Positions 14,507-31,387 of a stretch of 39,259 nt of DNA are shown piece by piece. The notes under the pieces are model-generated. The model was not told where the DNA came from. It did not search any database and worked only from the letters and a program-made list of their open reading frames with translations. A program made the translations under genes and the position numbers. Source of the stretch: a virus. The stretch lies in the IMG/VR virus record IMGVR_UViG_3300032217_000432, positions 1-39,259 of that record; one strand, given 5' to 3'. Position 1 is the stretch's first letter. Each line of letters opens with the position of its first letter.

Positions 14507-14534
14507 AATATACACTAACTCTGAACAATGTCAA
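14507..14534 (-). promoter_or_regulatory. Sigma70-type promoter for the ssDNA-binding operon
   Basis: Minus-strand -35 TTGACA (14529-14534, consensus), 16-nt spacer, -10 TATATT (14507-14512). The -35 box overlaps the stop codon of the SNF2 helicase gene. Transcription would start near 14500, about 35 nt before the ATG at 14466. Confidence 0.75.
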
Positions 14535-15922: not shown

Positions 15923-15928
15923 TTCCAA

Positions 15929-19560: not shown

Positions 19561-21393
19561 TTAACACTCCCCATAACTATGGCCGTAGCCCGATTCACAA
19601 TTAAGCGGTAGATCTTGCGCCCACTCCGGACGTAAGCGCATACATAATTCAACGTATTCCTTAGCTAGTTCTGCTTCCCCCTCTGGAACAATGCACGCCA
19701 CGGCGTCATGCACAGTCATGACCACGCGGTACTTCTTAGCAATCATTAGCATCTGCCCGCCGATTACGATACGGGCGAGTGCTTGGCATAGGTTCTCAAC
19801 TACTTTCCCACCGTATATCCGTGTAGGTATAGCCGCCTTGCCTTTCTTGGTGTCGTAAAGCAGTTCGCTTTTGCCGTCTTCCTGCTGTACTTTGCGAATG
19901 TTGGGGTACTTAATAAGAAGATCGTTGGGCAACCTGATTCCGTTTTTGCCTTCAATTTTAAGTAGCCCGTCGCGGCCTAGGGCCGAAACTTTATTACCCA
20001 TCATGTCCGTCAGCGCGTCGTGAGCGTCACCCCATAGCTCAGGGATCTTGGGGTAGGTCTTACGGTATACGTCAATAATGCGTTTACATTCCTCAATGGG
20101 CGTATCAACACCAAAGTTTTTAAGTTGGGTTTGGAACTTCGTAGCCCCCATTCCGTACCCCGCACCGAGAATTGTGGTCTTGCCTACGAACCGCTCTTGC
20201 TTGGTGATATCTCCAATTGGCTTGTCATATATAGAAGAGGCCATGATTTTGTACACGTCCTCGCCATTAGTAAACGCAGTTAACAGATCCTCCTGACCAG
20301 CCAGCCACGCAACGATCCGCGCCTCGATCTGGGCTGAGTCCGCGTCCAATATGACATAGCCGACTGGGGCAACGATTGCATGTTTTAACGGGCTGTTGCG
20401 GGGAAGGTTCTGAAGGTTGAGCTTGTCGTCACCACCCCACCGTCCGGTATGGGCGGCGTAGTATCGGAGGGGAACTGGCATAGGCCCACGTTGAGCGATG
20501 GCAATGAACCGCTCGGTCCGGGTCTCTTCAAGCGTGGACTTCACACCAAGCCTTGCGGCTACGATATTTTGCACAACCGTAAGTGGATGCTCAAGTAGGG
20601 CTTTGAACTTCTCGTCGGTCTTGGAGAACGCCCAAGTTTGTTTATCAGTAGCAGCACTAATCTTAGTTGGTGGTACTACGCCTACCTTAGTTAAAATCTC
20701 AGCGAGCTTTGGGTTGCTCATCAAGTCGTCTCGCGCATACCCCGACCTTTCCAAAACCTCCATTAACGTATCTTTAGAAGCCCTAACATTTGTTAGGTGT
20801 TCCTCAAGTAGATTGGAGTTGAGCTGCAACACAGGCTCGGAGAACATCTTGATCGTCAGGTCAATCAAGCGAAGCTCGACCTTTGGGAACCCGTCGGCCA
20901 TACATTGGAAGAGCTTGTAGGTGAGCGCGGTGTCGTTCTTGCAATACTCACCGTACCGAGCGAGTTCAGCGTCGGTGAAGTCCACCCTACGTTTGCCTTG
21001 TGCCGCAACAACCTCGTTACCCTTAACTCCGATATCGTAGTAGTCGGCTAGTACTTTAAGACTCCCGCCCACCTCAATACCGTGTATAGCGCGAGCCATA
21101 CTAAGAGTATCGAGCCAACCCCTAGGGTTAACACCAAAGCTCCAGCCCAAGATAGCAGCATCGAACATAGCGTTGTGGGCGAGCGCCAAGTTCTCTTCAA
21201 AGTTGTATTGCTCAAGGAAAGCCTTTGTCTGCGCGTGCGTACCTGAAAACCACTGCGGCTCATCGGTGTCCACTTGCACCGACACACCGATCACCTCAAA
21301 CTGCTCGTCCCTTACGTATTCTTCCGTAGTCAGTTTGCTCAGCGAAAACTTGTTATCGTAATAGGTTTCAAAATCGATGGTGAGGATTTTCAT
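19561..21393 (-). CDS. DNA polymerase, family A, with 3'-5' exonuclease (610 aa)
   Basis: The phage replicative polymerase. Exonuclease motifs: D7-F-E9-T, H73-N-A-M-F-D78, and Y150-x3-D154. Polymerase motif A: D352 in DADSAQIEAR; motif B (O-helix): R401-x3-K405-T-T-I-L409-G-x2-Y413-G; motif C: V561-H562-D563 followed by Ala rather than the usual Glu. By alignment K405 equals T7 K522, so L409 falls at the position of T7 Tyr526 / E. coli Phe762. The ATG at 21393 overlaps the upstream stop as ATGA and has little Shine-Dalgarno, suggesting coupling. Residues 200-205 (LTNVRA) are encoded by one of the 16-bp palindromes. There is no 5'-nuclease domain. Confidence 0.95.
   Translation of the reverse strand: MKILTIDFETYYDNKFSLSKLTTEEYVRDEQFEVIGVSVQVDTDEPQWFSGTHAQTKAFLEQYNFEENLALAHNAMFDAAILGWSFGVNPRGWLDTLSMARAIHGIEVGGSLKVLADYYDIGVKGNEVVAAQGKRRVDFTDAELARYGEYCKNDTALTYKLFQCMADGFPKVELRLIDLTIKMFSEPVLQLNSNLLEEHLTNVRASKDTLMEVLERSGYARDDLMSNPKLAEILTKVGVVPPTKISAATDKQTWAFSKTDEKFKALLEHPLTVVQNIVAARLGVKSTLEETRTERFIAIAQRGPMPVPLRYYAAHTGRWGGDDKLNLQNLPRNSPLKHAIVAPVGYVILDADSAQIEARIVAWLAGQEDLLTAFTNGEDVYKIMASSIYDKPIGDITKQERFVGKTTILGAGYGMGATKFQTQLKNFGVDTPIEECKRIIDVYRKTYPKIPELWGDAHDALTDMMGNKVSALGRDGLLKIEGKNGIRLPNDLLIKYPNIRKVQQEDGKSELLYDTKKGKAAIPTRIYGGKVVENLCQALARIVIGGQMLMIAKKYRVVMTVHDAVACIVPEGEAELAKEYVELCMRLRPEWAQDLPLNCESGYGHSYGEC
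20782..20797. repeat. Palindrome site 1 (inside DNA polymerase gene)
   Basis: CCTAACATTTGTTAGG. The outermost copy on the left side of the array; read on the minus strand it encodes L-T-N-V-R in the polymerase frame. Confidence 0.85.
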
Positions 21394-21701
21394 TTGGTTA
21401 GTTTTTTAAAATTAGGAATCCTAGGGTCCCTGCCTTTACCTGCTTGATAGCCGCGTTCTGATTCCTCGTCCGTATCATCTTCTTGGTCTTGTACTAGCAG
21501 CGTAGTCATAACTAGCGTCTCAAACTGCTGACGCCGCACCTGCTTAAGCGCGTCGTACATAGCGGCCTTCTCAGGCTCGGTCATGATGTCCTTGAAGTTT
21601 TCCTTGAAGATAAAATTCCATCGTCCCGCGTCCCCAAAGAACTCCTCTGGGTGTGACGTCATACGGTTAACAATTGCTTGAACTCCGCTCGAAATGCTCA
21701 T
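21390..21701 (-). CDS. Hypothetical phage protein upstream of polymerase (103 aa)
   Basis: ATG 21701 has GGAG 6 nt upstream and overlaps the TAA of the VRR-NUC gene (TAATG); a longer ATG start at 21770 would run through that gene. The protein is helical and acidic, with a C-terminal charged tail (DQEDDTDEESERGYQAGKGRDPRIPNFKKLTK). The stop overlaps the polymerase start. It may be a polymerase accessory, judged only by position. Confidence 0.6.
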   Translation of the reverse strand: MSISSGVQAIVNRMTSHPEEFFGDAGRWNFIFKENFKDIMTEPEKAAMYDALKQVRRQQFETLVMTTLLVQDQEDDTDEESERGYQAGKGRDPRIPNFKKLTK

Positions 21702-21988
21702 TACGGCTCCAGTATTTGGGCTAAGTCGTTTAGGTTGCTCTCGTTGATCACCAGCGCCATGCCCCCGCATTCGCGGATTGTGCGTAGGTGTTTGTCTTGC
21801 AGGGCTGTCGTTGTGCCCTTACCCGCCTTGGCTTCGATAGCTAGGAACTGACCCCGCATACAGCAGAGAAAGTCAGGCACGCCGCTATTGCCGTACATAG
21901 TTCCAATAGGCATAGCGTAGTACACACTGTGCTTCTCAAGGAGAGCTTTGATCTTAGCTTTGACCTTGGACTCGGGGGTTGACGCCAT
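21701..21988 (-). CDS. VRR-NUC nuclease (95 aa)
   Basis: A stand-alone VRR-NUC (PD-(D/E)XK) domain: E6 in an N-terminal helix, GVPD39FLCC, then AIE52AK54 and a downstream Q (TTALQ). This is the full catalytic set at the usual length for phage Holliday-junction or flap-type nucleases. ATG 21988 with AGAGGAG upstream, 18 nt after the predicted transcription start. It is the first gene of the polymerase transcript. Confidence 0.88.
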   Translation of the reverse strand: MASTPESKVKAKIKALLEKHSVYYAMPIGTMYGNSGVPDFLCCMRGQFLAIEAKAGKGTTTALQDKHLRTIRECGGMALVINESNLNDLAQILEP

Positions 21989-22012
21989 GTAAACTCCTCT
22001 TCAGACCCACCT

Positions 22013-22040
22013 ACTATACCACACAACTGGACAATGTAAA
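22013..22040 (-). promoter_or_regulatory. Sigma70-type promoter for the polymerase operon
   Basis: Minus-strand -35 TTTACA (22035-22040), 16-nt spacer, -10 TATAGT (22013-22018). It shares the TGTGG-TATA junction with the promoters at 27.5 and 29.8 kb. The start would be near 22006, just before the VRR-NUC ribosome site. Confidence 0.65.
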
Positions 22041-22043
22041 GAA

Positions 22044-22068
22044 GAGCGGGAACTGGTTTAGCCCGCTC
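22044..22068. repeat. Hairpin carrying the GGGAACTGGTTTAG motif
   Basis: GAGCGGG (22044-22050) and CCCGCTC (22062-22068) form a 7-bp perfect stem. The arm and loop together hold GGGAACTGGTTTAG (22048-22061), which recurs exactly at 30200-30213 and 30393-30406 in the non-coding hub. It lies between the terminator and the promoter. Confidence 0.6.
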
Positions 22069-22077
22069 AGCGCGGAC

Positions 22078-22105
22078 AAAAAAAGACCGAGCACTTGGCT
22101 CGGCC
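22078..22105 (-). terminator. Intrinsic terminator after the HTH-DUF3310 gene
   Basis: Read on the minus strand: GGCCGAGC, 5-nt loop, GCTCGGTC, then seven Ts (22084-22078). The single non-Watson-Crick pair is a G-U wobble only on this strand, confirming its direction. It separates the accessory/AAA transcript from the polymerase promoter about 40 nt downstream. Confidence 0.85.
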
Positions 22106-22116
22106 TTCAAGGGGAA

Positions 22117-22132
22117 CCTAACAAATGTTAGG
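22117..22132. repeat. Palindrome site 2 (stop codon of DUF3310 gene inside)
   Basis: CCTAACAAATGTTAGG. On the minus strand its TAA (22128-22130) is the stop codon of the HTH-DUF3310 gene; it sits just ahead of the terminator. Confidence 0.85.
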
Positions 22133-22592
22133 GCGAGGTGCTCAAAACATCCTGCAATTTAGCGGCGTACCAAGCCAGCTTACCGGCATCAAGGACTGCG
22201 GCCCCCTTGCTACCAATACGTGAGCCGTACTTAAGTACGTTGCCCTTCAAGTAACCAACAAACTCATCGCGGGTGAGCTTGGCTTGGATGAAGTCAATCG
22301 TCTCGATCCCACCCACCATGTAGTGAGGAGGATGATCGACCATGTTGACCGCCAACGGCTTGACCTTGGGCAGTGTATCGGGACGCTGGAGCATCTCGGT
22401 GATCTTGTCGTACACAGTAGGGGCTTTACTTACTGCCGCTTTTTTCTTCTTGGCCTTGAGCCTATACATACGATCTTTATCGTACTTCTTGACTGCATAT
22501 ATCAAAGAAACCTTTACCCCCAACGCTTCGGCTACCTTAGCGGCCTTCTCTTTAGGGTTAGTACGGAGGTATTCACGGATCTTCGCGCTCAT
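22128..22592 (-). CDS. HTH plus DUF3310 protein (154 aa)
   Basis: The N-terminal 45 residues (SAKIREYLRTNPKEKAAKVAEALGVKVSLIYAVKK) form a helix-turn-helix-like domain with a basic linker. The C-terminal 70 residues (VDHPPHYMVGGIETIDFIQAKLTRDEFVGYLKGNVLKY ... DAGKLAWYAAKLQ) are a clear DUF3310, a domain found in phage proteins and related to T7 gp1.7-type nucleotide kinases. ATG 22592 was preferred because the longer frame runs through the neighbouring gene. It is the last gene before the 22.08-kb terminator, and its stop codon is part of a palindrome. Confidence 0.75.
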   Translation of the reverse strand: MSAKIREYLRTNPKEKAAKVAEALGVKVSLIYAVKKYDKDRMYRLKAKKKKAAVSKAPTVYDKITEMLQRPDTLPKVKPLAVNMVDHPPHYMVGGIETIDFIQAKLTRDEFVGYLKGNVLKYGSRIGSKGAAVLDAGKLAWYAAKLQDVLSTSP

Positions 22593-22608
22593 CGAGAGCT
22601 TTTTAGGT

Positions 22609-22812
22609 TCAATATTCGGTACCACTTGGGACTCCACTAGTTTGGTTACGGACGTAGTCGGCAAGAATTTCACGCATCTTGGCTTGCTTGCTGGTAGGGT
22701 GGTGCAGAGCAAAGTACTCCACAATCTCCCTACTCAGACGCAGGCTCGTGCTAAAGAGGGCTGGCTTCTTGCCAAGACCACGCCCCTTTCGCTTTGGTTT
22801 ATCAGGCTCCAT
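22609..22812 (-). CDS. Small basic helical protein (67 aa)
   Basis: ATG 22812 with AGGAAGGA upstream, which lies in the tail of the 22802-22972 gene. The start is Lys/Arg-rich (MEPDKPKRKGRGLGKKPALF), followed by a helix pair (TSLRLSREIVEYFALHHPTSKQAKMREILADYVRNQ). This looks like a ribbon-helix-helix or other small DNA-binding fold, but I cannot assign it. It ends 17 nt before the HTH-DUF3310 gene. Confidence 0.6.
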   Translation of the reverse strand: MEPDKPKRKGRGLGKKPALFSTSLRLSREIVEYFALHHPTSKQAKMREILADYVRNQTSGVPSGTEY

Positions 22813-22972
22813 AAGGTTCCTTCCTCTTCTGGATGTGAGTGGCTAAGATCCATCGGTCACCCAATTGACGAACCGATTTCACCCATTGCTTTTGATTGTG
22901 GCGTTGCGTGTGCATGGGAACATAGTCCACGGCAAACAACTCCCGAACGTGCTTTAGCATCCGTATATCCAT
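22802..22972 (-). CDS. Small basic phage protein (56 aa)
   Basis: Found by reading the gap. ATG 22972, TGA 22802-22804. The sequence MDIRMLKHVRELFAVDYVP, then QKQWVKSVRQLGDRWILATHIQKRKEP, is basic and aromatic. Its ribosome site TTAGGAGAGAG begins with the last bases of the palindrome at 22981-22996. It overlaps the next gene start by 11 nt. The function is unknown. Confidence 0.6.
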   Translation of the reverse strand: MDIRMLKHVRELFAVDYVPMHTQRHNQKQWVKSVRQLGDRWILATHIQKRKEPYGA

Positions 22973-22980
22973 GACTCTCT

Positions 22981-22996
22981 CCTAACATTTGTTAGC
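22981..22996. repeat. Palindrome site 3 (feeds a ribosome site)
   Basis: CCTAACATTTGTTAGC. On the minus strand its last bases TTAGG run into AG to make TTAGGAG, the Shine-Dalgarno of the 22972 start. It begins 1 nt after the stop of the upstream 291-aa gene. Confidence 0.85.
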
Positions 22997-22997
22997 G

Positions 22998-23873
22998 TTA
23001 TTGGGCGACTTCGGGCGTGATGATGAAGGTTGTATCGCTAGCTCGAAACCCCATGCCTTCGATACATTGGCCTTCGTCCACTAGCTTGAGCATACCTAGC
23101 TTGCGGCGTATGTCCTCGGACAGGTCTTCATCTGTTGAAGTTGATATTGTATCACCAACCTTGACAATGTAGTGTGTATCTTCTTTGATGATAAAAATAG
23201 TTTTCCTAGACTCGTGCAGATCACAGACAAACTTGAAGGTGCTATGGTCGAGGTTGTGCTTATCCACGATGTTCCGAGCAGTTAGTGCTGAAGGAAATTG
23301 CCCTACGTACAAGTCCATGTTAGCTAGTATGAAGTCCTCGGCTTTGTCGAAGAACTTCTTCTTGGCTTTTTGGAGTTCGCCAACCACGTTCCAGTTGGCA
23401 GTCATAAGGCTGTTAGCCGCAGCAACCCCCAGCTTCTCAACCTTCTCGGCGTCGGGCATACGATAGAAGTTCTTGCGTATCATCATCGTAGCTTTCTTGA
23501 CATCCTCAGTACGATACGAACGCCCGCTCTTGCGACCCGCCGATACCCTGTCGTTCTCTACATAGACCTTGTAGCTACGGCCAACGTAAGTAATACCAAC
23601 GCTACCAAGACACTCGTTGCCTTCGTAGATAAAGAAGTCGGTGATGATCCGAACATCTTTACCATCCTCAGTCTGGCTAAGCCCCCTTGTGTGTTGCGGT
23701 ACGAACGTCCAAGGCTTGTCTTTCAACGGGAACAGAACTTCGTAGACTGCCAAGTTAGTCTGGTAACTGTAGTCCTTCATGTTCAGGGGCTTCTTATCTA
23801 TCGCTAGCTGTACGTTGGGTAGGCTAAGTAGATTGTGATTGACGTTGTATCCGCATTGAGAAATTGCCATCAT
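22998..23873 (-). CDS. Conserved hypothetical protein of AAA/VWA block (291 aa)
   Basis: ATG 23873 (a second ATG follows at once) with AAGGAG made by a degenerate palindrome 7 nt upstream. The protein is soluble, with a beta-rich first half (VYEVLFPLKDKPWTFVPQHTRG, RIITDFFIYEGNECLGSVGITYVGRSYKVYV) and a helical middle (ELQKAKKKFFDKAEDFILANMD). The C-terminus looks beta-rich again. I see no catalytic motif and do not recognise the family. It is co-transcribed with the DUF3150-like, VWA and AAA genes and may belong to the same machine. Confidence 0.6.
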   Translation of the reverse strand: MMAISQCGYNVNHNLLSLPNVQLAIDKKPLNMKDYSYQTNLAVYEVLFPLKDKPWTFVPQHTRGLSQTEDGKDVRIITDFFIYEGNECLGSVGITYVGRSYKVYVENDRVSAGRKSGRSYRTEDVKKATMMIRKNFYRMPDAEKVEKLGVAAANSLMTANWNVVGELQKAKKKFFDKAEDFILANMDLYVGQFPSALTARNIVDKHNLDHSTFKFVCDLHESRKTIFIIKEDTHYIVKVGDTISTSTDEDLSEDIRRKLGMLKLVDEGQCIEGMGFRASDTTFIITPEVAQ

Positions 23874-23880
23874 GCTGACT

Positions 23881-23896
23881 CCTTACATTTGTTAGG
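23881..23896. repeat. Palindrome site 4 (degenerate, creates a Shine-Dalgarno)
   Basis: CCTTACATTTGTTAGG. The one changed base turns the minus-strand arm GTTAGG into GTAAGG, giving TAAGGAG ahead of the ATG at 23873. It also replaces the TTAG half-site. Confidence 0.75.
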
Positions 23897-23915
23897 TCTG
23901 GGTGGACTTGTGAAC

Positions 23916-24779
23916 TTACCAATCAAACTTGCTGAGGATCGAATCGACCTTGGCCTTCATCGACTCACGCACCATCGGTGATTCTTTGATCACTTCAATA
24001 TCTGCACCGACCAACGTAACCTCTAGCTGACGTCGAGCGTCCTCCAGCTTTGGATCATTAGTGATGTTGAGCTTGGTCAAGAGGCCACACAGTTCTTGGG
24101 CGTTAGTGATCAGCGACTCGTGATACCGCCGCTTCGGACCATCATCGTCGGTGACAGGCTCATCCGTTAGCTTCTCGCTAATACCTACCAACGTAGAGTG
24201 AAGTCGCTCCCACGGCTCACGCATCGCATCGACCATGCGGCTATTGAAGTCTTGCTCATACGTAGCTTTGATGGACTCCAACTCCTCGTTGTTAACGTCC
24301 AGTCGGAAGTCGCCCGCCTCTGGCAGAGGTGAGTACACGTAGCGGAACCCAAACTTCGCACGCACTTCTTCAAGCGATGGGTAGTCTTCGGGTTTGTGCA
24401 GCTTGCCCAACCTAGTCGGCGCGTCGATCACAAGTTGCGGGTACGCAGTAAAGAACATGTTGCACAACCCGTTGAACTCGGCCTCGGCTTGGTTGATAAA
24501 GGACTTGTGCTCCATGAACAACTTGGTTGCAAGCAAGCGATCACCCTTGTCTGCCCACGGTAGGGTCAGCTTGAGATTGGTGACACGGCACTTGGCCGCG
24601 AACTTTTCGATGTTCTTACGTAAGTGCGTACCTGCAAACAGGTTCTTCTTGGTCTGTGACGCATCGTGTGTAGCCAAGGCGTCGTTGTTAACTTGGTCGG
24701 TGACCTCACGGTCGATCTTCGATGCGGGCCACACGCTGATGTTGAGGCTTACCAATACTGCTGATGATGCAATGCTCAT
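23916..24779 (-). CDS. DUF3150-like protein (287 aa)
   Basis: ATG 24779 with AAGGAG upstream. It begins with a strand-rich region (SSAVLVSLNISVWPASKIDREVTDQV), then LTLPWADKGDRLLATKLFMEHKSFI, AYPQLVIDAPTRLGKLHKPEDYPSLEEVRAKFGFRYVYSPLPEAGDFRLDV, and a helical end. This series matches my memory of DUF3150, a family found in phages and integrative elements near MoxR-type AAA ATPases and VWA proteins. Exactly those two genes lie just upstream here. The molecular role is unknown; it may be the substrate, adaptor or structural partner of the AAA/VWA pair. Confidence 0.65.
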   Translation of the reverse strand: MSIASSAVLVSLNISVWPASKIDREVTDQVNNDALATHDASQTKKNLFAGTHLRKNIEKFAAKCRVTNLKLTLPWADKGDRLLATKLFMEHKSFINQAEAEFNGLCNMFFTAYPQLVIDAPTRLGKLHKPEDYPSLEEVRAKFGFRYVYSPLPEAGDFRLDVNNEELESIKATYEQDFNSRMVDAMREPWERLHSTLVGISEKLTDEPVTDDDGPKRRYHESLITNAQELCGLLTKLNITNDPKLEDARRQLEVTLVGADIEVIKESPMVRESMKAKVDSILSKFDW

Positions 24780-24810
24780 GCTCTACTCCTTAGGTTTAAT
24801 TACGAACACG

Positions 24811-24826
24811 ACTAACAATTGTTAGG
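24811..24826. repeat. Palindrome site 5 (stop codon of 77-aa gene inside)
   Basis: ACTAACAATTGTTAGG. The symmetric AATT form. The TAA stop (24822-24824) of the upstream gene lies in it, and it is 32 nt before the ATG of the DUF3150-like gene. Confidence 0.85.
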
Positions 24827-25055
24827 ACTTCTCGGGTTTACCAGCCAGCTTCGCCATGTTGTACAGCGAGTCGGGCAAGACGCGAATATTGAAACGTTCA
24901 TCATTGTTGTACACGTGGTGCGTGTTGTCCTGCCCACCACCGTGGTACTTCTCCTCATACATCTCTGCCCTACTGACAATCTCAGCAAGGATAAGAGCGT
25001 CCTTAACGTCCACCACGTAGGACTTGTAGCCCATCTCAAAAGTTACCTTCGCCAT
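24822..25055 (-). CDS. Small hypothetical protein between VWA and DUF3150 genes (77 aa)
   Basis: ATG 25055 has GGAG 8 nt upstream and begins 1 nt after the VWA-gene stop; a much longer in-frame start would run inside the VWA gene. Sequence: MAKVTFEMGYKSYVVDVKDALILAEIVSRAEMYEEKY, then GGGQDNTHHVYNNDERFNIRVLP. It is a small alpha/beta protein with no known motif. It lies inside the AAA/VWA cassette, and its TAA stop sits in a palindrome. Confidence 0.65.
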   Translation of the reverse strand: MAKVTFEMGYKSYVVDVKDALILAEIVSRAEMYEEKYHGGGQDNTHHVYNNDERFNIRVLPDSLYNMAKLAGKPEKS

Positions 25056-25056
25056 T

Positions 25057-26280
25057 TCAGTTCTCCACGTGAACAGTTTTACCAATAGGAGAAACCACTT
25101 GGTTGCCCCCAACGATGCACCACAGAACCGGACACGGCCATGCACCACCCCAATCAGAACCAACGTAGCCATCGGTCAGAACCACGGCGCATTCAGGTTC
25201 GATGCGATGCTTACCCATATACTTGGTGATGCAAGACGGTGAAGTACCTCCTCCACCTTTCGGTCGAGTTGATTGAATAAGATTAGAAGAATCAGTGCCG
25301 GTATAAGTTTCATGTGCCGCTACCTCAGAGTCCCAGTAAATAAGATCAATCACTTCAGGGCTAACCAAATCACAGATAGAACTAACTTCTGTTAGGAAGC
25401 CGTTAAGCTCCGGACCCCCGATAGACCCGCTTGTGTCTACTGCGATAAGGATTCGACCAACCCGCTCCGAGATCATCGTCGGCAGATATACGTCCGAGCC
25501 AATGAATCTACGGTTGGGGCGTCGCCAGCTTGAGTTGTCCTTACCAGCACACACGGAACGGACGAACTCGGCCAAGACCTCACGCCAGTTAACCTGAGGT
25601 TTGAGCATCTCGCCTAAGTCACGCGCCAGTCCACCTGCCCCTTCACCGTTGAGCTTGCGATCATTGATGATCCCTTGACGGATGGCTTGGTCAATCTCAC
25701 GCTCAAGCTCCTTAGCTTCGTCCTCGCTAAGTTCTTCAGCTTCGTCCCACCCATGCTCATCGAACCCCTCCTCGTTGGGGTTACGCTCGTCCCCACCTTC
25801 GCCGACTCCCTCTTCTTTGAGAATGTCGAACACCTGCTTGGAGTTCATCCCACGGAACCGCTCATCGACCAGCCCCATGATTTTCCCCTTCATCGGCCCA
25901 TCCTTGTATCTAGGCATGGCGATGTGCTCCTCGATTGGGTCGAGGTCACGCAACATGATGTTAATGACGTAGTCACACGCCATATTCGCCAGCTTGTGAT
26001 TCTCCTTGTGCAGCTTGCGCCACGTAGTGAGGTGCCGATACATCTTGTGGCCCACCTCGTGCAGTCGCACAAACGCCAACTCCTTCTCGTCTAAGCTCTT
26101 CACAAACGCACGCCCATACATCTCGTCGCGCCCGTTGGTCTTGGCAGTTGGGACGTTGTCGGCGATGTAGGTTTTCCCAACCATCAATAGGCCGCTCAAC
26201 AATGCGAACTTAGGGTTACGTATGAGAGTGATAGTCACTCGCTGGAGCTTGCGCTCCTCGGTCATGGCGTTAGCTAACAT
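25057..26280 (-). CDS. Metallopeptidase-like / VWA protein, DUF2201 type (407 aa)
   Basis: Two parts. N-terminal: zinc-protease-like helix H74-E-V-G-H78 and ACDYVINIMLRDLDPIEEHI, as in the putative metallopeptidase domain paired with DUF2201. An acidic linker follows (about 160-200, rich in Glu/Asp). C-terminal: a VWA domain with a MIDAS motif D-T-S-G-S near 282-286, then SICDLVSPEVIDLIYWDSEV, KGGGGTSPS and VVLTDGYVGS, giving the Thr and Asp metal contacts. VWA proteins of this kind work with MoxR/CobS-like AAA ATPases, and such a gene lies 24 nt upstream. The ATG at 26280 sits inside a palindrome, with GGAG about 9 nt before it. Catalysis by the HExxH is possible but unproven. Confidence 0.85.
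   Translation of the reverse strand: MLANAMTEERKLQRVTITLIRNPKFALLSGLLMVGKTYIADNVPTAKTNGRDEMYGRAFVKSLDEKELAFVRLHEVGHKMYRHLTTWRKLHKENHKLANMACDYVINIMLRDLDPIEEHIAMPRYKDGPMKGKIMGLVDERFRGMNSKQVFDILKEEGVGEGGDERNPNEEGFDEHGWDEAEELSEDEAKELEREIDQAIRQGIINDRKLNGEGAGGLARDLGEMLKPQVNWREVLAEFVRSVCAGKDNSSWRRPNRRFIGSDVYLPTMISERVGRILIAVDTSGSIGGPELNGFLTEVSSICDLVSPEVIDLIYWDSEVAAHETYTGTDSSNLIQSTRPKGGGGTSPSCITKYMGKHRIEPECAVVLTDGYVGSDWGGAWPCPVLWCIVGGNQVVSPIGKTVHVEN
25381..25396. repeat. Palindrome site 6 (degenerate, inside VWA gene)
   Basis: ACTAACTTCTGTTAGG. Arms kept, centre changed; it encodes L-T-E-V-S in the VWA domain, in the same phase as the other intragenic copies. Confidence 0.55.
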
Positions 26281-26288
26281 TTGTTAGT
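26273..26288. repeat. Palindrome site 7 (start codon of VWA gene inside)
   Basis: GCTAACATTTGTTAGT. On the minus strand the central ATG (26280-26278) is the start codon of the metallopeptidase/VWA gene. Confidence 0.85.
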
Positions 26289-26304
26289 TCTCCGGTTGTG
26301 TTGA

Positions 26305-27378
26305 TTACAGAAGGTCTTGGTTGGCAGCGACCCAATCACTAAAGGCTTTGTTGCCAAACGCAATGCTCTGCTTGGCTTTGTTCTTGGCAATGTTGATTGC
26401 GAACGATGCTTGCCACTCGGGACTGAAGCGACCCAAGTACTCCATGAACGCAGTCATCGTCTCTCGCTGAACCTTAGCGATAGCACCGTACACGGTAACT
26501 GCACATGCACCGGGCATGTCAGGTACGTTCGCCCCCTTGGGATTGGCAATGATCGACTCCCACGCTGGTAGCTGGTCGGCGTAGGCAATGAAGGCTTGAA
26601 GATCACGAGCAGCAGACTCACCCACCGTACCCGTAAGGGCAGCAATCGTTGCGTCTACGGAATTGTTCGCACGTTCAACCACGATATTGCTCGCCAGCTC
26701 AAGTGTGCGTGGACATACGTACGCAGACTGAACGGACTTAGGATTGAAGATGTACGGGTTGTCCCCTGCACCACCATCGAGGTAACTCGCCAACACCTGC
26801 GGATACCGATGCACCCAAGCACACACCTCGGGAGCGATACCACCTTTACCCTGCGCCCAGTCGAGCCATTCTTCTGATGAAGGTTTACGCACCACAACCC
26901 GAGTAACACGTGCCCGAGTATGGGCAGGGAGCGAGTCATTAACACCATCGGATTCAAGGTTACCAGTCAAGAAGATGATCGACCCAGTCGGCACCGACAC
27001 ATCACCGAGTCGAGGGTTCACCACCTCAAGTAGTGGGTGGAGCATGTTCTTCACCGGGGTCGCACCCTTGCTGAACTCGTCGAGCATGATGCACACGGGC
27101 TTGCCCGCTTCTAGCTTGAACCTACTGTTGGGGTAGTACTTGGTTGTCTTGGTGGTGTGATCGACCACCGGCATGGCGATGTCACCCAAGTCCATGTTAG
27201 GCACATCAATGTAGGCATAGTCCATGCCGACCCGCTCGGCGAGACGCTTGAGCATTGAGGACTTACCGATCCCCGGCTCACCGGCCAGAAGGAAACGGTT
27301 ACTGCGGATACTTGCGATGAGGCTCTCGGCCTCGGACAGGGTTACGGTCTTACCAAAGTTGACTTCTTGCTTAGCCAT
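26305..27378 (-). CDS. MoxR/CobS-like AAA+ ATPase (357 aa)
   Basis: A phage AAA+ ATPase. Walker A is G33-E-P-G-I-G-K-S40, Walker B is CIMLD100-E101, sensor 1 is FLTGN140, and HTRARVTRV (about 153-161) supplies arginine-finger candidates. The insert MDLGDIAMPVVDHTTK between Walker A and B and the DEFSKGATPVKNMLHPLLE segment are typical of MoxR/CbbQ-type ATPases that load or remodel VWA-bearing partners. ATG 27378 has TAGGAG upstream. It is the first gene after the promoter at 27479-27507, with a palindrome in its leader, followed by the VWA, 77-aa and DUF3150-like genes. Confidence 0.88.
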   Translation of the reverse strand: MAKQEVNFGKTVTLSEAESLIASIRSNRFLLAGEPGIGKSSMLKRLAERVGMDYAYIDVPNMDLGDIAMPVVDHTTKTTKYYPNSRFKLEAGKPVCIMLDEFSKGATPVKNMLHPLLEVVNPRLGDVSVPTGSIIFLTGNLESDGVNDSLPAHTRARVTRVVVRKPSSEEWLDWAQGKGGIAPEVCAWVHRYPQVLASYLDGGAGDNPYIFNPKSVQSAYVCPRTLELASNIVVERANNSVDATIAALTGTVGESAARDLQAFIAYADQLPAWESIIANPKGANVPDMPGACAVTVYGAIAKVQRETMTAFMEYLGRFSPEWQASFAINIAKNKAKQSIAFGNKAFSDWVAANQDLL

Positions 27379-27395
27379 GATGAACTCCTAATTAA

Positions 27396-27458
27396 CTAAC
27401 GACACTAACGAACATCTAACAATTGTTAGGTAAGGGCTAACCCCTACCTGCTTCTAAC
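27396..27458. promoter_or_regulatory. Array of CTAAC half-sites in the AAA gene leader
   Basis: CTAAC occurs at 27396, 27405, 27416 (part of palindrome 8), 27437 and 27454 within 63 bp of the leader between the promoter and the AAA start. This is a local excess of the palindrome half-site, suggesting cooperative protein binding. Confidence 0.45.
27415..27430. repeat. Palindrome site 8 (leader of AAA ATPase transcript)
   Basis: TCTAACAATTGTTAGG. It lies 48 bp downstream of the -10 box of the 27.5-kb promoter, the same distance as site 13 from the 29.8-kb promoter. Confidence 0.88.
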
Positions 27459-27478
27459 GAATTCCCACTCAAGTATAT

Positions 27479-27507
27479 ATTATACCACAAAGTTATCCCA
27501 ATGTCAA
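27479..27507 (-). promoter_or_regulatory. Consensus sigma70-type promoter for the AAA/VWA transcript
   Basis: Minus-strand -35 TTGACA (27502-27507), 17-nt spacer, -10 TATAAT (27479-27484): a full consensus match. The surrounding block is nearly identical to the promoter at 29759-29787 (AACTTTGTGG before the -10). It lies directly after the stop of the 350-aa gene. Confidence 0.92.
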
Positions 27508-27511
27508 GTTT

Positions 27512-28564
27512 TTAGCCATGCTCTCTGTCCAACCACTGGGTGTAGTTCCAATTGGGCACCTGCCCCTGCTTGAATGTGACTAACTCAAACACCTCCTTGC
27601 TATGCCATTGAAAGAGCAGTCGGTCCAAGGTCTTTGAGAAGTCGGTTGGTACGCAGCGTATGTACTTCTCACCACCTACCGTAGCTCCAACACCGCAGCT
27701 ATATGCAACCAACAGGAACCCCATGTGGAAGCTCTCGTGCTTCTCTCCCTCACCCCTAACAAATGTTAGGAGCCGCTCCATGTTTGCAACCCACTCGGCG
27801 TGGCGGTTACGTGTGACCTTCTTGACCTCGCCCCCGCTCCAGTCGTTCTCCTCCGTCACACCAATCGGTGGCTTAAAGAGCAGGAACTTACTGCGTTGGG
27901 GTGCGTACATCTCGCCGGTCTTTGGGTGTATTGGCACTACAACTAGATCCATCTCTGACAGTGGGATGTCGATTACTTTGGCTGTGCGCACGTTGTGGTA
28001 AGCCCGCTCGTAAAGCTCCTCTGTACGCAACGACACCATCGCCTTCACGTACCTGTAGAACTCACCGTACTGCTTACGTATGGCGTTAGTAGCTTTACGA
28101 TTAAGCCGCCACCCCTGCATAGCCGCTTCGCTAACAATTGTTAGGGCTCCATCCTCTGGCTTGACGACCAACGGCACACCTACTGTGAGCGCAACTTTCT
28201 CACCACTTTTGAACGTCAACCTCAACGCACGTTTGTGCATGTCTGCGTCGGCGAGGTAGTTCCACAGCAGGTTCCTAATGAAGTACGCCTCGGTTACGTC
28301 CCCCCACCGCAGGGCTTTGCCCGACGGACCCATGCCAGACACAAGCTCGATAGTGCCGTCGGGTTTGTACGTAACGATTGGTCTGTCGTACAGGTAAGCT
28401 ACGATGTTCTCGCCTTGCTTACGTATGTCGAACGCGAGGTGGTAGCGCCGCTCACCCAACGGAATACGCTTAGTACCTCTTATAGGCAGAGTTAGGTTGA
28501 TGTACCTGACCGCGCTCTCGTAGCTATCTAGTGGCTGGATTGAGTCATAGCTTCTGTAACTCAT
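27512..28564 (-). CDS. Large hypothetical early protein (350 aa)
   Basis: ATG 28564 overlaps the stop of a tiny membrane-protein gene (ATGA) and has a GGGGGTG ribosome site; an upstream in-frame start would run through that gene. The protein is soluble and basic, with repeated beta-like patches (RYHLAFDIRKQGENIVAYLYDRP, LRLTFKSGEKVALTVGVPLVV) and a helical region (NAIRKQYGEFYRYVKAMVSLRTEELYERAYHNV). Two palindromes lie inside it, encoding LTFVR and LTIVS. I recognise no family. It ends exactly where the AAA promoter begins. Confidence 0.65.
   Translation of the reverse strand: MSYRSYDSIQPLDSYESAVRYINLTLPIRGTKRIPLGERRYHLAFDIRKQGENIVAYLYDRPIVTYKPDGTIELVSGMGPSGKALRWGDVTEAYFIRNLLWNYLADADMHKRALRLTFKSGEKVALTVGVPLVVKPEDGALTIVSEAAMQGWRLNRKATNAIRKQYGEFYRYVKAMVSLRTEELYERAYHNVRTAKVIDIPLSEMDLVVVPIHPKTGEMYAPQRSKFLLFKPPIGVTEENDWSGGEVKKVTRNRHAEWVANMERLLTFVRGEGEKHESFHMGFLLVAYSCGVGATVGGEKYIRCVPTDFSKTLDRLLFQWHSKEVFELVTFKQGQVPNWNYTQWLDREHG
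27755..27770. repeat. Palindrome site 9 (inside 350-aa gene)
   Basis: CCTAACAAATGTTAGG, encoding L-T-F-V-R. Confidence 0.85.
28130..28145. repeat. Palindrome site 10 (inside 350-aa gene)
   Basis: GCTAACAATTGTTAGG, encoding L-T-I-V-S. Confidence 0.85.
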
Positions 28565-28653
28565 AGCACCCCCGACACAACAAGAGTTAATAAAACAACC
28601 AGCCCCACGGCTGAGATGACACCAATCACGGTGTCCCACTTGTCACTGCTCAT
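28561..28653 (-). CDS. Single-span membrane microprotein (30 aa)
   Basis: Found by reading the gap. ATG 28653 (another ATG one codon earlier at 28656), TGA 28561-28563. The peptide MSSDKWDTVIGVIS, then AVGLVVLLTLVVSGVL, has a short charged start and about 20 hydrophobic residues, i.e. one membrane span ending at the C-terminus. GAGGAG lies just upstream. It overlaps the coiled-coil gene upstream and the 350-aa gene downstream (ATGA), so it is locked between them by coupling. Possible roles are membrane targeting, superinfection exclusion or inhibition of a host membrane protein; none is proven. Confidence 0.6.
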   Translation of the reverse strand: MSSDKWDTVIGVISAVGLVVLLTLVVSGVL

Positions 28654-28918
28654 CATCAAACTCCTCTATTTCGTTTTGGACTTGATTTAGTTTGTCTACC
28701 AATGCTTGTAGCTGTTGCACGTCTGCGAGTAACTCCGCTCGCCTCTCGTCCCTGTAGTCTTTGGGCTTCATCTCGTCAACCAGATCCCGTACCTCCTGCT
28801 CCAACTCAGCCCTAACATTTGTTAGGTCCTCAATCATCACGGCACGCTTGTCGCTGTGTTTACCTGCGTTGCGCCTAGGCTTGGTTATCAAATCACGCAC
28901 CACGGGATTCCTTTTCAT
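28643..28918 (-). CDS. Coiled-coil protein (91 aa)
   Basis: ATG 28918 with GAGGAAG upstream, overlapping the upstream stop (ATGA). It has a basic start (MKRNPVVRDLITKPRRNAGKHSDKR) and then a long charged helix with heptad spacing (IEDLTNVRAELEQEVRDLVDEM, LLADVQQLQALVDKLNQVQNEIEEF). It is probably a dimeric coiled coil. A palindrome inside it encodes DLTNVR. The function is unknown. Confidence 0.65.
   Translation of the reverse strand: MKRNPVVRDLITKPRRNAGKHSDKRAVMIEDLTNVRAELEQEVRDLVDEMKPKDYRDERRAELLADVQQLQALVDKLNQVQNEIEEFDDEQ
28811..28826. repeat. Palindrome site 11 (inside coiled-coil gene)
   Basis: CCTAACATTTGTTAGG, encoding L-T-N-V-R, the same pentapeptide as site 1 in the polymerase. Confidence 0.85.
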
Positions 28919-29100
28919 ACTTCCTCCACCTCTTGTTGCACCTCGATTAAATAACCCAGTCGGCGAATACCATCTAGCGTCGCACGTGTAAGCGTGCTGT
29001 GGCCTGCTATGTCGGCGAAGATTTGGGCTCTTGGGCAGGCTGGATACACGGTCTTATTGCCGTATATATTTCTAACCCGTACGGTAATTTTTAGTTCCAT
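28915..29100 (-). CDS. Small conserved phage protein (61 aa)
   Basis: ATG 29100 with AGAGGAAG upstream. The sequence MELKITVRVRNIYGNKTVYPACPRAQIFADIAGHSTLT ... IRRLGYLIEVQQ matches a short phage family I recall only as hypothetical. It is small, alpha/beta, and has no metal motif beyond a single Cys. The first gene after palindrome 12. Confidence 0.65.
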   Translation of the reverse strand: MELKITVRVRNIYGNKTVYPACPRAQIFADIAGHSTLTRATLDGIRRLGYLIEVQQEVEEV

Positions 29101-29112
29101 GCTTCCTCTTAC

Positions 29113-29144
29113 GTTGGTTGGTACAGACTAACAATTGTTAGGTT
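29113..29144. repeat. 32-nt leader repeat, copy A
   Basis: GTTGGTTGGT, a short variable part, then palindrome 12 and TT. A near-identical unit is at 30703-30734. Both sit ahead of small minus-strand genes. Confidence 0.65.
29127..29142. repeat. Palindrome site 12 (between 72-aa and 61-aa genes)
   Basis: ACTAACAATTGTTAGG, in the leader before the ATG at 29100. Confidence 0.88.
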
Positions 29145-29146
29145 TT

Positions 29147-29365
29147 TTACGCGGTCCTTACTTCCTTGGGGTTCGTTTGCTTGAGCGTTGCAAAAGCGGA
29201 TTCAGCAGACACATACATATACCCGCCCTTGCTGTACTCCTGAATAACGGTCCATGACTTGCGCTCGATCTTGGCTTGCTCTTCACCGCACCAAAGGCAG
29301 AGGGTTTTGATCTCGGCACGCGCAGGGGGTTCGATCTCTTCACCACATAGTCGGCAGTCGCTCAT
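29147..29365 (-). CDS. Zinc-ribbon protein (72 aa)
   Basis: ATG 29365 overlaps the upstream stop (ATGA) with GGAG 9 nt before it; a longer in-frame start falls within the upstream gene. CxxC pairs at C4-C7 and C23-C26 (MSDCRLCGEEI ... LCLWCGEE) make a zinc ribbon of the DksA/TraR-like general style, followed by a helical end with many Lys. It might bind RNA polymerase or nucleic acid, but key DksA residues cannot be checked by eye. Confidence 0.65.
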   Translation of the reverse strand: MSDCRLCGEEIEPPARAEIKTLCLWCGEEQAKIERKSWTVIQEYSKGGYMYVSAESAFATLKQTNPKEVRTA

Positions 29366-29703
29366 GATTGTGCTCCGGCTCCAAATAGTTTTCTGACTTC
29401 CACAGTACCCATAGAGGTGTAACCCCATTTGCTGAACTCACCGTCGATCAGCGTGAAGAAGCACGCCCAGTGAGAGGGATCTAAGTGATTGGTCTTGGCG
29501 GCTTTGAGTAGGTAGAGCATTTTGGTCTCGGCTTGCTGGCCTATCGGTGTCATGGTGAGTTGGGGTCGGTGGGCGGTGTGCAGGTTGCAAAAGCGAAAGA
29601 AGGTGTGCGGGTCGTGTTGGAGTGCGTCTAGTTTGTTACGTCTAACGGCAGGTTTGGGCAGGGGTTTGGGTTGAACTTTCGGTGGTGCTTTGTTATCTAA
29701 CAT
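29362..29703 (-). CDS. First gene of the 29.8-kb transcript, hypothetical (113 aa)
   Basis: The start ATG (29703) is the ATG inside palindrome 13, with GGAG about 9 nt upstream. It has a Pro/Lys-rich start (MLDNKAPPKVQPKPLPKP), then a folded part (LQHDPHTFFRFCNLHTAHRPQLTMTPIGQQAETKMLYLLKAAKTNHLDPSHWACFF). No known motif. Being the first gene after a consensus promoter, it is probably expressed very early. Confidence 0.6.
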   Translation of the reverse strand: MLDNKAPPKVQPKPLPKPAVRRNKLDALQHDPHTFFRFCNLHTAHRPQLTMTPIGQQAETKMLYLLKAAKTNHLDPSHWACFFTLIDGEFSKWGYTSMGTVEVRKLFGAGAQS

Positions 29704-29711
29704 TTGTTAGG
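29696..29711. repeat. Palindrome site 13 (start codon of 113-aa gene inside)
   Basis: TCTAACATTTGTTAGG. It contains the start codon of the 29703 gene and lies 47-48 bp downstream of the -10 box. Confidence 0.9.
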
Positions 29712-29758
29712 CTCCGGTGAGGGTTGGTGACTTCGGGACAAACTTTTACTATACCTAT

Positions 29759-29787
29759 ATTATACCACAAAGTTATGCTTATGTCAA
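29759..29787 (-). promoter_or_regulatory. Consensus sigma70-type early promoter
   Basis: Minus-strand -35 TTGACA (29782-29787), 17-nt spacer, -10 TATAAT (29759-29764). Full consensus, and a sister copy of the promoter at 27479-27507. It drives the genes from 29703 leftward. Confidence 0.92.
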
Positions 29788-29902
29788 GTTTTTAGGGAAG
29801 CAGGGAGCTGAGTGTTTTCGGCAGGGATGTTATGGATGTTATGGAAAGTGATGAAATGTTACGTAAAGTTACGAAAATAAAAAAACTCGTAACACGAAAA
29901 TT

Positions 29903-30093
29903 TGGCTCAACCATGCGGGTTTGAGGGTATATGTTATATAAATAGTGAAAAAACGAAAAAGAGGGTACGTAGGAGTTATTTAAAAGAGAATGACCTGCTG
30001 AGGGGTGTGCTCGAACACGAAAATTTCACGCTCTCTCAATCGTAAAACAGCGTAACATATAACAGATGGCTGGAAACCCGCATGGTTGAGCCA
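29903..30093. repeat. Perfect 20-nt inverted repeat
   Basis: Left arm 29903-29922 (TGGCTCAACCATGCGGGTTT) and right arm 30074-30093 are exact reverse complements, 151 nt apart. The inner region is AT-rich and also has a shorter inverted match (TATATGTTA). It could form a cruciform, a structured RNA or a boundary of a mobile segment. Confidence 0.8.
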
Positions 30094-30159
30094 TTCTTGG
30101 TCCATTACGTACATAACTTTAGTATGATCTGGGCATAACTCGTAACATCGCCCCCTGCA

Positions 30160-30175
30160 ACTAACAAAAGTTAGG
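30160..30175. repeat. Palindrome site 14 (AAAA variant)
   Basis: ACTAACAAAAGTTAGG. In the hub; the right arm is shortened to AGTTAG. Confidence 0.7.
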
Positions 30176-30179
30176 ACGA

Positions 30180-30406
30180 CTTGGGGCTACCGCCGCACAG
30201 GGAACTGGTTTAGTTACGTTTTTTACCCCTGTTTTTCGCTTAACAAGTCGAAAAACGTTCTTTATACTCTGCTACGCAGAGCCGGTTGAACGAAAACGAA
30301 GCAAAACCAACCAAACGTAACATTGGCATATGCCAACTTGGGACTACCGCCCTCGTGCTGGCTAAAGCCATCCTTGGGACTACCGCCGCACAGGGAACTG
30401 GTTTAG
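30180..30406. repeat. 34-nt direct repeats with third partial copy
   Basis: Copies at 30180-30213 and 30373-30406 differ at one base; a 15-nt partial copy (CTTGGGACTACCGCC) is at 30337-30351. The shared 3' part GGGAACTGGTTTAG is also in the hairpin at 22044-22068. Confidence 0.75.
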
Positions 30407-30423
30407 CTGGTATCTCAGCAAGA

Positions 30424-30439
30424 CCTAACAAAAGTTAGG
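30424..30439. repeat. Palindrome site 15 (AAAA variant)
   Basis: CCTAACAAAAGTTAGG, 20 bp from site 16. Confidence 0.75.
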
Positions 30440-30459
30440 ATGGACGCAAAAAAGCCCAA

Positions 30460-30475
30460 CCTAACAAATGTTAGG
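30460..30475. repeat. Palindrome site 16
   Basis: CCTAACAAATGTTAGG, just past the terminator of the 30.5-31.2 kb transcript. Confidence 0.88.
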
Positions 30476-30483
30476 TCAGGCCG

Positions 30484-30507
30484 AAAAAAAGCCCCGCAAT
30501 GCGGGGC
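30484..30507 (-). terminator. Intrinsic terminator of the right-hand leftward transcript
   Basis: Minus-strand GCCCCGC, 3-nt loop, GCGGGGC, then seven Ts (30490-30484). A strong G/C stem directly after the 53-aa gene. Confidence 0.9.
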
Positions 30508-30526
30508 CGAGTAGGTCAGGGTTGGG

Positions 30527-30688
30527 TTAGCGGCGGGGTTGCCCCCAAGTTACCTTTACGAAAGTGTCGTAATCCTTTCCAACCCTTGCGGGCATGATCC
30601 AGAGCGGGATCAGACTTGGAAGCCGCTCGGATGGACTTGCGATGAAAAGCAGAACCTTGAGCAGAAAAGAATCGGCGCGGACTAGCAT
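30527..30688 (-). CDS. Small protein with hydrophobic N-terminus (53 aa)
   Basis: ATG 30688 with AAGGGG 7 nt upstream; the ATG inside palindrome 17 (30724) is in frame but has no ribosome site, so I did not use it. The N-terminal stretch FLLKVLLFIAS and PSLIPLWIM are hydrophobic but short, followed by a basic end (KDYDTFVKVTWGQPRR). It could be a membrane-peripheral peptide. The last gene before the 30.49-kb terminator; function unknown. Confidence 0.5.
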   Translation of the reverse strand: MLVRADSFLLKVLLFIASPSERLPSLIPLWIMPARVGKDYDTFVKVTWGQPRR

Positions 30689-30702
30689 GATGTTCCCCTT
30701 AT

Positions 30703-30734
30703 GTTGGTTGGTGCAATCTAACATTTGTTAGGTT
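30703..30734. repeat. 32-nt leader repeat, copy B
   Basis: The partner of 29113-29144: same GTTGGTTGGT block and spacing to a palindrome, with only a few differences. It precedes the 30688 gene. Confidence 0.65.
30717..30732. repeat. Palindrome site 17
   Basis: TCTAACATTTGTTAGG, in the leader of the 53-aa gene and 3 nt from a G/C hairpin. Confidence 0.88.
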
Positions 30735-30755
30735 CGGGGGGCTCGCAACCCCCCG
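30735..30755 (-). promoter_or_regulatory. G/C hairpin after the 162-aa gene
   Basis: CGGGGGG / CCCCCCG, a 7-bp stem with a 7-nt loop, 6 nt after the stop at 30762. No T tract follows, so it is more likely an mRNA stability or attenuation element than a full terminator. Confidence 0.5.
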
Positions 30756-30761
30756 CCCTAC

Positions 30762-31250
30762 TTAGCCGAGTGTGTCGGTATCGCCGCCCATCTGCTCGAA
30801 CGCATCCATCAGGGCCTCTTTGACGTTCGACCATGGGGTGTCGATGTCAGCCTCCTCAGCCTTGAAGATCCGATTGATGATCGTCTTGAGATCCGCAAGG
30901 TTCTGCGCATCGACTTGCGCCCCCCCCGTGACACGGTTCTGAGTCTTGACGCGCCCGGAGGCATCCTTGACGCGCCCCCAGTAGACGTCAATCGTAGGTT
31001 TGTCGAGCCCCCGCTGAGAAAAGGCATCGACAAACTTCGCACGCTCGCCCTTGACGCCCTTGGCGAGTGCGCCCTTGAGATCGAACCAAGGCGTTGTGAT
31101 CTCGCCCTGAGGGTTGACCAGATTAAACTCACGGCACATGGCCGAGGCATAGTTACGGATTAGATCGCCCGTACCCTTGACGCCTGAGGCGAGTGCATCG
31201 CGGGTTGCGTCGAGGCTGAGGACGGGGGCGGTGGTGGTGGTTACGTTCAC
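30762..31250 (-). CDS. Hypothetical early protein, GTG start (162 aa)
   Basis: GTG 31250 has GGAG 6 nt upstream; the open frame extends to 31379, but only through leader sequence and a palindrome with no ribosome site. The sequence (SLDATRDALASGVKGTGDLIRNYASAMCREFNL ... TTPWFDLKGALAKGVKGERAKFVDAF ... KPTIDVYWGRVKDASG) has an internal echo (ALASGVKG / ALAKGVKG, DTPWSNVKEAL) and a helical, soluble character. It is the gene nearest the divergent switch region on the leftward side, so a regulator is plausible, but no DNA-binding motif is certain. Confidence 0.6.
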   Translation of the reverse strand: MNVTTTTAPVLSLDATRDALASGVKGTGDLIRNYASAMCREFNLVNPQGEITTPWFDLKGALAKGVKGERAKFVDAFSQRGLDKPTIDVYWGRVKDASGRVKTQNRVTGGAQVDAQNLADLKTIINRIFKAEEADIDTPWSNVKEALMDAFEQMGGDTDTLG

Positions 31251-31371
31251 GTGGAACTCCTGAAAAACAACCCGGAGGACTGCGCCGGGGAATCGCAATC
31301 GACTCACAATCGATGGATGCATTAGACCATATCGCACCACAAAAAGCAAATATTTCGTGATCGAAATTAAA

Positions 31372-31387
31372 CCTAACAAATGTTAGG
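31372..31387. repeat. Palindrome site 18 (rightmost copy)
   Basis: CCTAACAAATGTTAGG, extended to a 20-bp perfect palindrome (31370-31389, AACC...GGTT). It is the last copy before the late genes. Confidence 0.9.

Follow-up and report, generated by a model that had tools for sequence, protein, structure and literature searches.

What does a phage do with a MoxR-type AAA+ ATPase, a protein that joins a HExxH helix to a VWA domain, and a DUF3150-like protein encoded side by side? The question is raised by the virus record IMGVR_UViG_3300032217_000432, whose 39,259 bases form the window analysed here, and in which a preliminary description made from the letters alone had recognised a cassette of such genes. 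We found that the AAA, VWA and DUF3150-like genes are kept together in phages and on plasmids, and we propose, with a probability of about one half, that they encode a three-part AAA+ remodelling machine, possibly proteolytic, that acts early and inside the cell. The genes considered are all on the minus strand, and the positions first given for the whole cassette were correct:

26305 to 27378, minus strand: AAA+ ATPase of the AAA_5/MoxR-midasin type, N4 gp24-like (357 aa; phrog_1297)
25057 to 26280, minus strand: HExxH (DUF2201_N) plus VWA (DUF2201) protein, N4 gp25-like (407 aa; phrog_1314)
24822 to 25055, minus strand: 77-aa gene, lineage-restricted
23916 to 24779, minus strand: DUF3150-like protein, third conserved member (287 aa)
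22998 to 23873, minus strand: 291-aa protein, conserved phage neighbour

Three genes kept together in phages and plasmids

Viral loci were gathered independently with VWA queries and with DUF3150-like queries, and every open reading frame (ORF) in them was scanned with a profile of each of the three families. In every one of the 83 loci with three complete genes, many of them closely related so that 83 is not a number of independent events, the three genes lie on one strand, with a median span of 3,540 bases; four of the 83 are plasmid loci. In the window the gap between the AAA and VWA genes is 24 nt. The linkage on which the preliminary description had staked its proposal is thus conserved. 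The gene order varies, being AAA-VWA-DUF in 56 loci, AAA-DUF-VWA in 18 and DUF-AAA-VWA in 9. Searches with the DUF protein alone also recovered adjoining AAA and VWA genes, and where one or both partners are missing, the contig ends close by, on the side that should hold the partner. The distance matrices of the three proteins correlate with r of 0.93-0.96, a level reached in none of 500 permutations, although such a correlation could also arise from shared ancestry alone.

The plasmid collection holds 41 records with a DUF3150-like protein and 87 with a VWA protein. Four plasmids were examined, from Burkholderia, Paraburkholderia, Rhodovastum and Simplicispira hosts, and all carry the three genes on one strand in the order AAA-DUF-VWA. 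The trio is contiguous in three of them; small genes separate AAA from DUF in the Simplicispira plasmid. No phage or virion genes surround it in the four plasmids; in two it stands directly before conjugation (type IV secretion system) genes and also has PRTRC genes as neighbours. The occurrence on plasmids and the three gene orders together show that the association outlasts rearrangement.

The genes might nevertheless be three separately useful early genes that stay together only through the operon of one lineage. The neighbourhood as a whole, including the DNA polymerase, a VRR-NUC-like gene and the 291-aa gene, is indeed conserved, so linkage within the lineage is partly inherited. But the linkage persists through three orders and across phages and plasmids, and of the window cassette genes only the AAA, VWA and DUF3150-like genes recur in plasmids, which makes this explanation improbable. 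The 77-aa gene, first counted as a cassette member, turned up at no more than 6 of the loci studied. The 291-aa gene, suggested as a fifth member, occurs at 87 phage loci yet is absent from plasmid loci and from cyanophage MinM2, and for this reason is probably not a core member.

As judged from its sequence, the AAA protein is of the MoxR/midasin type, as first described. It matches Pfam AAA_5 (E 3e-6) and, over its full length, phrog_1297 (E 4e-48). Walker A residues P35, G36, G38 and K39, together with D100, N140 and R157, are invariant in 8 sequences; the Walker A, Walker B and sensor 1 motifs and a conserved arginine are present. The best solved sequence relatives of its profile in the PDB are midasin AAA modules (E 2.5e-34). 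Against the bpMoxR profile of the MoxR-vWA-beta-propeller ternary systems it scores 12.7 bits, below the cut-off of 27. It has 289 matches in the phage collection.

The second protein likewise bears out the proposed union of a HExxH helix with a VWA domain that has a metal-ion-dependent adhesion site (MIDAS). Its Pfam matches are DUF2201_N, a 'putative metallopeptidase' (E 2e-26), and the VWA-like DUF2201 (E 3e-15), and it aligns with phrog_1314 over its full length (E 1e-85). H74, E75, H78 and H83 are invariant in an alignment of 16 phage and plasmid proteins; among 53 proteins from the window and viral contigs the first three are invariant and H83 nearly so. The MIDAS residues D282, S284, S286, T346 and D370 are invariant in both alignments. 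The putative third zinc ligand could be H83 or D103, both conserved among the 53. The structural model (predicted local distance difference test score, pLDDT, 84; predicted template-modelling score, pTM, 0.60) is good in the two domains and weaker in the stretch between them. Its top Foldseek match in the PDB is the MIDAS domain of human MDN1 (E 1.5e-4), a partial alignment (template-modelling score by query, TMq, 0.28) that many other VWA domains nearly equal in score. PHROGs labels phrog_1314 'HNH endonuclease', a label repeated across many phage records; it is contradicted by the Pfam match and the motifs. In the phage collection the protein has 779 tblastn matches, all below 60% identity; among the matches listed, jumbo phages and phages of 73-80 kb (several N4-like) form the majority. 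One 75-kb Acinetobacter 'plasmid' record, NZ_CP110465.1, has AAA and VWA matches resembling those of a similarly sized phage record and may be an N4-like phage.

The third protein has no match in Pfam (even at E 10), PHROGs or NCBIfam, and the name DUF3150, which we take to be PF11348, comes to it by other routes. Its AlphaFold model is confident (mean pLDDT 91, pTM 0.82) and its best match among viral models is a 'DUF3150 domain-containing protein' (BFVD A0A6J7WV52, TM-score 0.86, E 1e-19), which makes the name apt. Its sequence matches a cyanophage MinM2 protein annotated DUF3150 (E 3e-25), itself without a Pfam DUF3150 match at E 1. The label first given to the protein was therefore a good guess, supported by fold and by the MinM2 similarity though by no Pfam profile. 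A PDB search with the model returned nothing at E <0.001, so the predicted fold appears to have no solved relative. In the phage collection there are only three matches, all within one cyanophage group whose genomes are equal in length, and the one cyanophage record examined has a MoxR ATPase, a DUF3150-annotated gene and a VWA gene together. Isolated phages with the trio are those of the MinM2 / Pag-Yong1 / Pra-JY27 group. When one viral DUF3150-like protein was run against bacterial and archaeal genomes, in a search that reaches close relatives only, no relative turned up. In Mycobacterium phage Dylan, a Cluster O phage with dispersed palindromes, gp94 adjoins an AAA ATPase gene (gp94-gp95, L136:10933-13525). 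As a DUF3150 homologue gp94 gave a weak fold match (E 0.011) and no support in profile comparison, and it remains a lead.

A proposed intracellular remodelling machine

How might the three proteins work together? In the reading we prefer, the AAA protein would form a ring of the MoxR/midasin type, and the VWA protein, carrying its metalloprotease-like N-terminal domain, would dock on that ring by means of the VWA/MIDAS part, in the manner of NorD on NorQ. The midasin relatives of the first protein and the MDN1 match of the second are as this type predicts, namely a ring working on a target held by the VWA/MIDAS part. The DUF3150-like protein would be a third subunit, probably an adaptor or the part that recognises the target. 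ATP hydrolysis would pull or twist the target and so remodel it, with the HExxH domain perhaps cutting it. The target would be some complex, encoded by the host or by the element, that matters to phages and to conjugative plasmids; the virion would be no special target.

Action is expected early, in the intracellular replication phase. The cassette lies on the leftward strand of the window with a family A DNA polymerase, an SNF2-type helicase, a RecB-like exonuclease, a DUF3310 protein and a weak VRR-NUC match, that is, on the strand of the polymerase, helicase and nucleases and opposite the rightward strand of the terminase and portal genes. In phage N4 the homologues gp24 and gp25, core genes of N4-like phages, give middle, not late, transcripts (PMC4193335). 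Both the strand and the N4 transcripts support such timing.

The principal competing view places the pair in virion assembly, where the AAA and VWA proteins would assist as a chaperone and the HExxH domain would trim structural proteins. The passages of PMC7824862 that deal with group 2.2 jumbo phages propose such a role and cite an archaeal virus precedent, and in N4-like roseophages a second structural module lies near gp24/gp25 (PMC4193335). The jumbo-phage proposal concerns the pair in phages and fits the plasmid trios poorly, as these have no virion genes around them. Indeed, the existence of a three-part version in phages and conjugative plasmids narrows the function and argues against a purely virion role. 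The window trio has a host-type promoter and lies on the replication strand; this, and the middle expression of gp24/gp25, also speak against assembly, which we consider unlikely. Since whole trios occur on plasmids, virion maturation is the least fitting of the roles offered in the preliminary description; counter-defence and replication are both compatible with the data.

Counter-defence or host takeover, in which the machine would dismantle a host defence or other complex after DNA entry, is one form of the intracellular machine, and its likelihood overlaps the one half given above. Phages and conjugative plasmids share the trio and both need to survive entry into a new cell, and AAA-driven remodelling would be compatible with such a task. 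However, the cassette proteins have no convincing relative among the PADLOC defence-system profiles, and the cassette adjoins replication genes in phages, which would suit a role in replication equally well. We regard counter-defence as a tentative possibility. More speculative still is the specific proposal that the DUF3150-like protein completes, as third subunit, an unrecognised three-component AAA+ remodelling/protease complex common to phages and conjugative plasmids, and that this complex is directed at a host assembly endangering any incoming replicon.

The AAA plus VWA architecture is also that of CobST, and viral cobST clusters have been described (PMC8651126), so the cassette might supply part of a cobaltochelatase that raises host cobalamin synthesis. 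The VWA protein matches DUF2201 and not CobT, the AAA protein matches AAA_5, and no CobS family match was obtained in Pfam or NCBIfam. CobN was not among the window proteins scanned, which were part of the ORFs of a window that may itself be a fragment, as virus records classed linear often are. To our knowledge, neither a HExxH domain nor a DUF3150 partner is part of cobaltochelatase. A linked AAA-VWA pair with no evidence of a cobalamin role is what the preliminary description had reported, and we consider the CobST explanation very improbable.

Three observations weigh against the machine as we propose it. First, the AAA homologue of the jumbo phage PA5oct bears an 'ESI-MS/MS' (electrospray ionisation tandem mass spectrometry) note, which may mean that it was found in particles and counts in favour of virion assembly. 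Second, the VWA protein of Paraburkholderia dioscoreae plasmid pIII (L030:15896-17191, a protein outside the 16- and 53-member alignments) has lost HExxH while keeping the trio context and MIDAS, so either proteolysis is not universal or this copy has decayed. Third, the AAA-VWA pair occurs with no detectable third gene in the whole genome of Rhizobium phage RHph_TM3_14A and in the fetched stretches of N4, LIT1, At2, PA5oct and phage G, so in these N4-like, jumbo and other phages the pair would do without a third subunit. A 257-aa gene of RHph_TM3_14A, considered as a hidden third member, has no match to the DUF3150 profile.

Promoter, dispersed palindromes and neighbouring genes

The cassette had been described as driven by a consensus promoter, with palindromes at every step. 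The relevant sites are:

27479 to 27507, minus strand: consensus sigma-70 promoter with extended -10 (TTGACA-17-TATAAT with TG, 12/12)
27416 to 27429: palindrome CTAACAATTGTTAG in the AAA leader, 37-50 nt upstream of the AAA gene
26274 to 26287: palindrome CTAACAAATGTTAG containing the VWA start codon
24812 to 24825: palindrome across the stop of the 77-aa gene, with the DUF3150-like start 32 nt downstream
23882 to 23895: palindrome copy with 2 mismatches, upstream of the 291-aa gene by 8 nt
20783 to 31386: region with the whole CTAAC-N4-GTTAG array, 17 copies

The promoter matches the consensus, as claimed, at all 12 positions and lies ~100 to 130 nt upstream of the AAA start; the other four sites in the scan match at 9 of 12, and the total of 5 sites equals the shuffle mean. 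The palindromes are real too, but they are not specific to the cassette, being part of an array that extends from 20.8 to 31.4 kb. The 14-base motif CTAACAATTGTTAG occurs 17 times in the window with up to 2 mismatches, against 0.09 expected, and the CTAAC/GTTAG arms give 17 copies at a spacer of 4 and none at any other spacer from 0 to 12. Copies stand at gene starts, at stops and within genes. A general repeat search reported only a single inverted repeat within the cassette and did not pick up the palindromes.

Close relatives of the window carry CTAAC-N4-GTTAG too, and more distant trio phages have a palindrome of their own, of other sequence and in similar positions (loci L017, L034, L002, L068, L097, L009, L013, L020, L003, L025 and L123; for example TTATG-N7-CATAA x17 in L017 and, in MinM2, GTTCA-N3-TGAAC x11). 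Among DUF-bearing viral loci of at least 8 kb, 64 of 97 exceed all 105 first-order Markov shuffles in the palindrome scan. A palindrome lies from 20 nt inside to 70 nt upstream of 97 of 189 trio-gene starts in them, where ~5% would be expected from site density. These figures are descriptive, the palindrome being the best-scoring word of each locus and gene starts being estimated from profile alignments. The same scan recovers the 14-copy repeat of phiC31 and finds nothing comparable in T7, lambda, KPP25 or Rollin, in the fetched parts of N4, LIT1, At2, PA5oct and phage G, or in the four plasmids.

Several explanations of the palindromes were set aside. They are spread all over the early region and so are no trait of the cassette or of DUF3150; they do not track the DUF3150 gene, RHph_TM3_14A having 26 copies of its own palindrome and no detectable DUF3150 gene; and they do not track the trio, which lacks a comparable array in the four plasmids. 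As phage RNA-polymerase promoters they seem unlikely, since their flanks, judged by eye, look mostly unconserved. The dispersed palindromes go with this kind of phage, and they look like putative sites for a dimeric DNA-binding protein, although no regulator gene was recognised.

Two other genes of the window deserve mention. A 2228-aa protein (3091-9777, plus strand) has a C-terminal DarB-like antirestriction match (phrog_10089, E 3e-61), an LPD39 domain and a short match to a virion RNA polymerase family (phrog_2206, E 2e-12). The SNF2-type helicase (14531-15928, minus strand) strongly matches the ZorD and DpdE defence helicases, but its place in a phage replication module makes a role in replication the likelier one.

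Comparison with known systems

Arrays of this kind have precedents. The inverted repeats of phiC31 and the 17-bp repeats of Cluster O mycobacteriophages resemble the window array in having many exact copies, many intergenic and some intragenic, and Corndog, of Cluster O, has 34 such sites of unknown function (PMC4351075). The window palindrome differs from both in sequence. The stoperators of Cluster A (L5-type) phages are asymmetric and oriented with transcription (PMC4351075), whereas the window site is a palindrome.

For the proteins, we know of no DUF3150 protein in the NorQ-NorD, CbbQ-CbbO or RavA-ViaA systems, and of no DUF2201 HExxH domain in the NorD, CbbO or ViaA partners. These systems do share with the window a MoxR-type AAA protein and a VWA partner (PMC13036017). 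In NorQ-NorD a finger of the VWA protein enters the pore of the ring, and it is proposed that the VWA protein is twisted as ATP is used (PMC13036017). Group 2.2 jumbo phages have a MoxR AAA chaperone and a vWA co-chaperone with an N-terminal metallopeptidase domain, and the passages of PMC7824862 on this pair mention no DUF3150 member.

The AAA-VWA pair is therefore not new, contrary to the impression given at first: it is the already described phage pair phrog_1297/phrog_1314, known as N4 gp24/gp25 and from the jumbo phages (PMC4193335, PMC7824862). The three-part AAA-VWA-DUF3150 unit may be undescribed; no paper naming DUF3150 was found in the literature searched, where most subscription journals were out of reach, and such absence is weak evidence. 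The plasmid clusters hold the same three families as the window, in the order AAA-DUF-VWA, and differ in having no comparable dispersed palindromes. The trio would provide a defined complex to purify and gives the DUF3150-like protein a probable partner.

The closest comparison is with N4. Its gp24 and gp25 are homologous to the window AAA and HExxH-VWA proteins over the full length, and their genes too stand side by side, or almost so, on a single strand within the middle/replication region. The window differs from N4, LIT1 and At2 in that the stretches examined there yielded neither a DUF3150-like gene nor a comparable palindrome array. Should the trio be confirmed, the long-debated role of gp24/gp25, a core pair of N4-like phages, would become testable.

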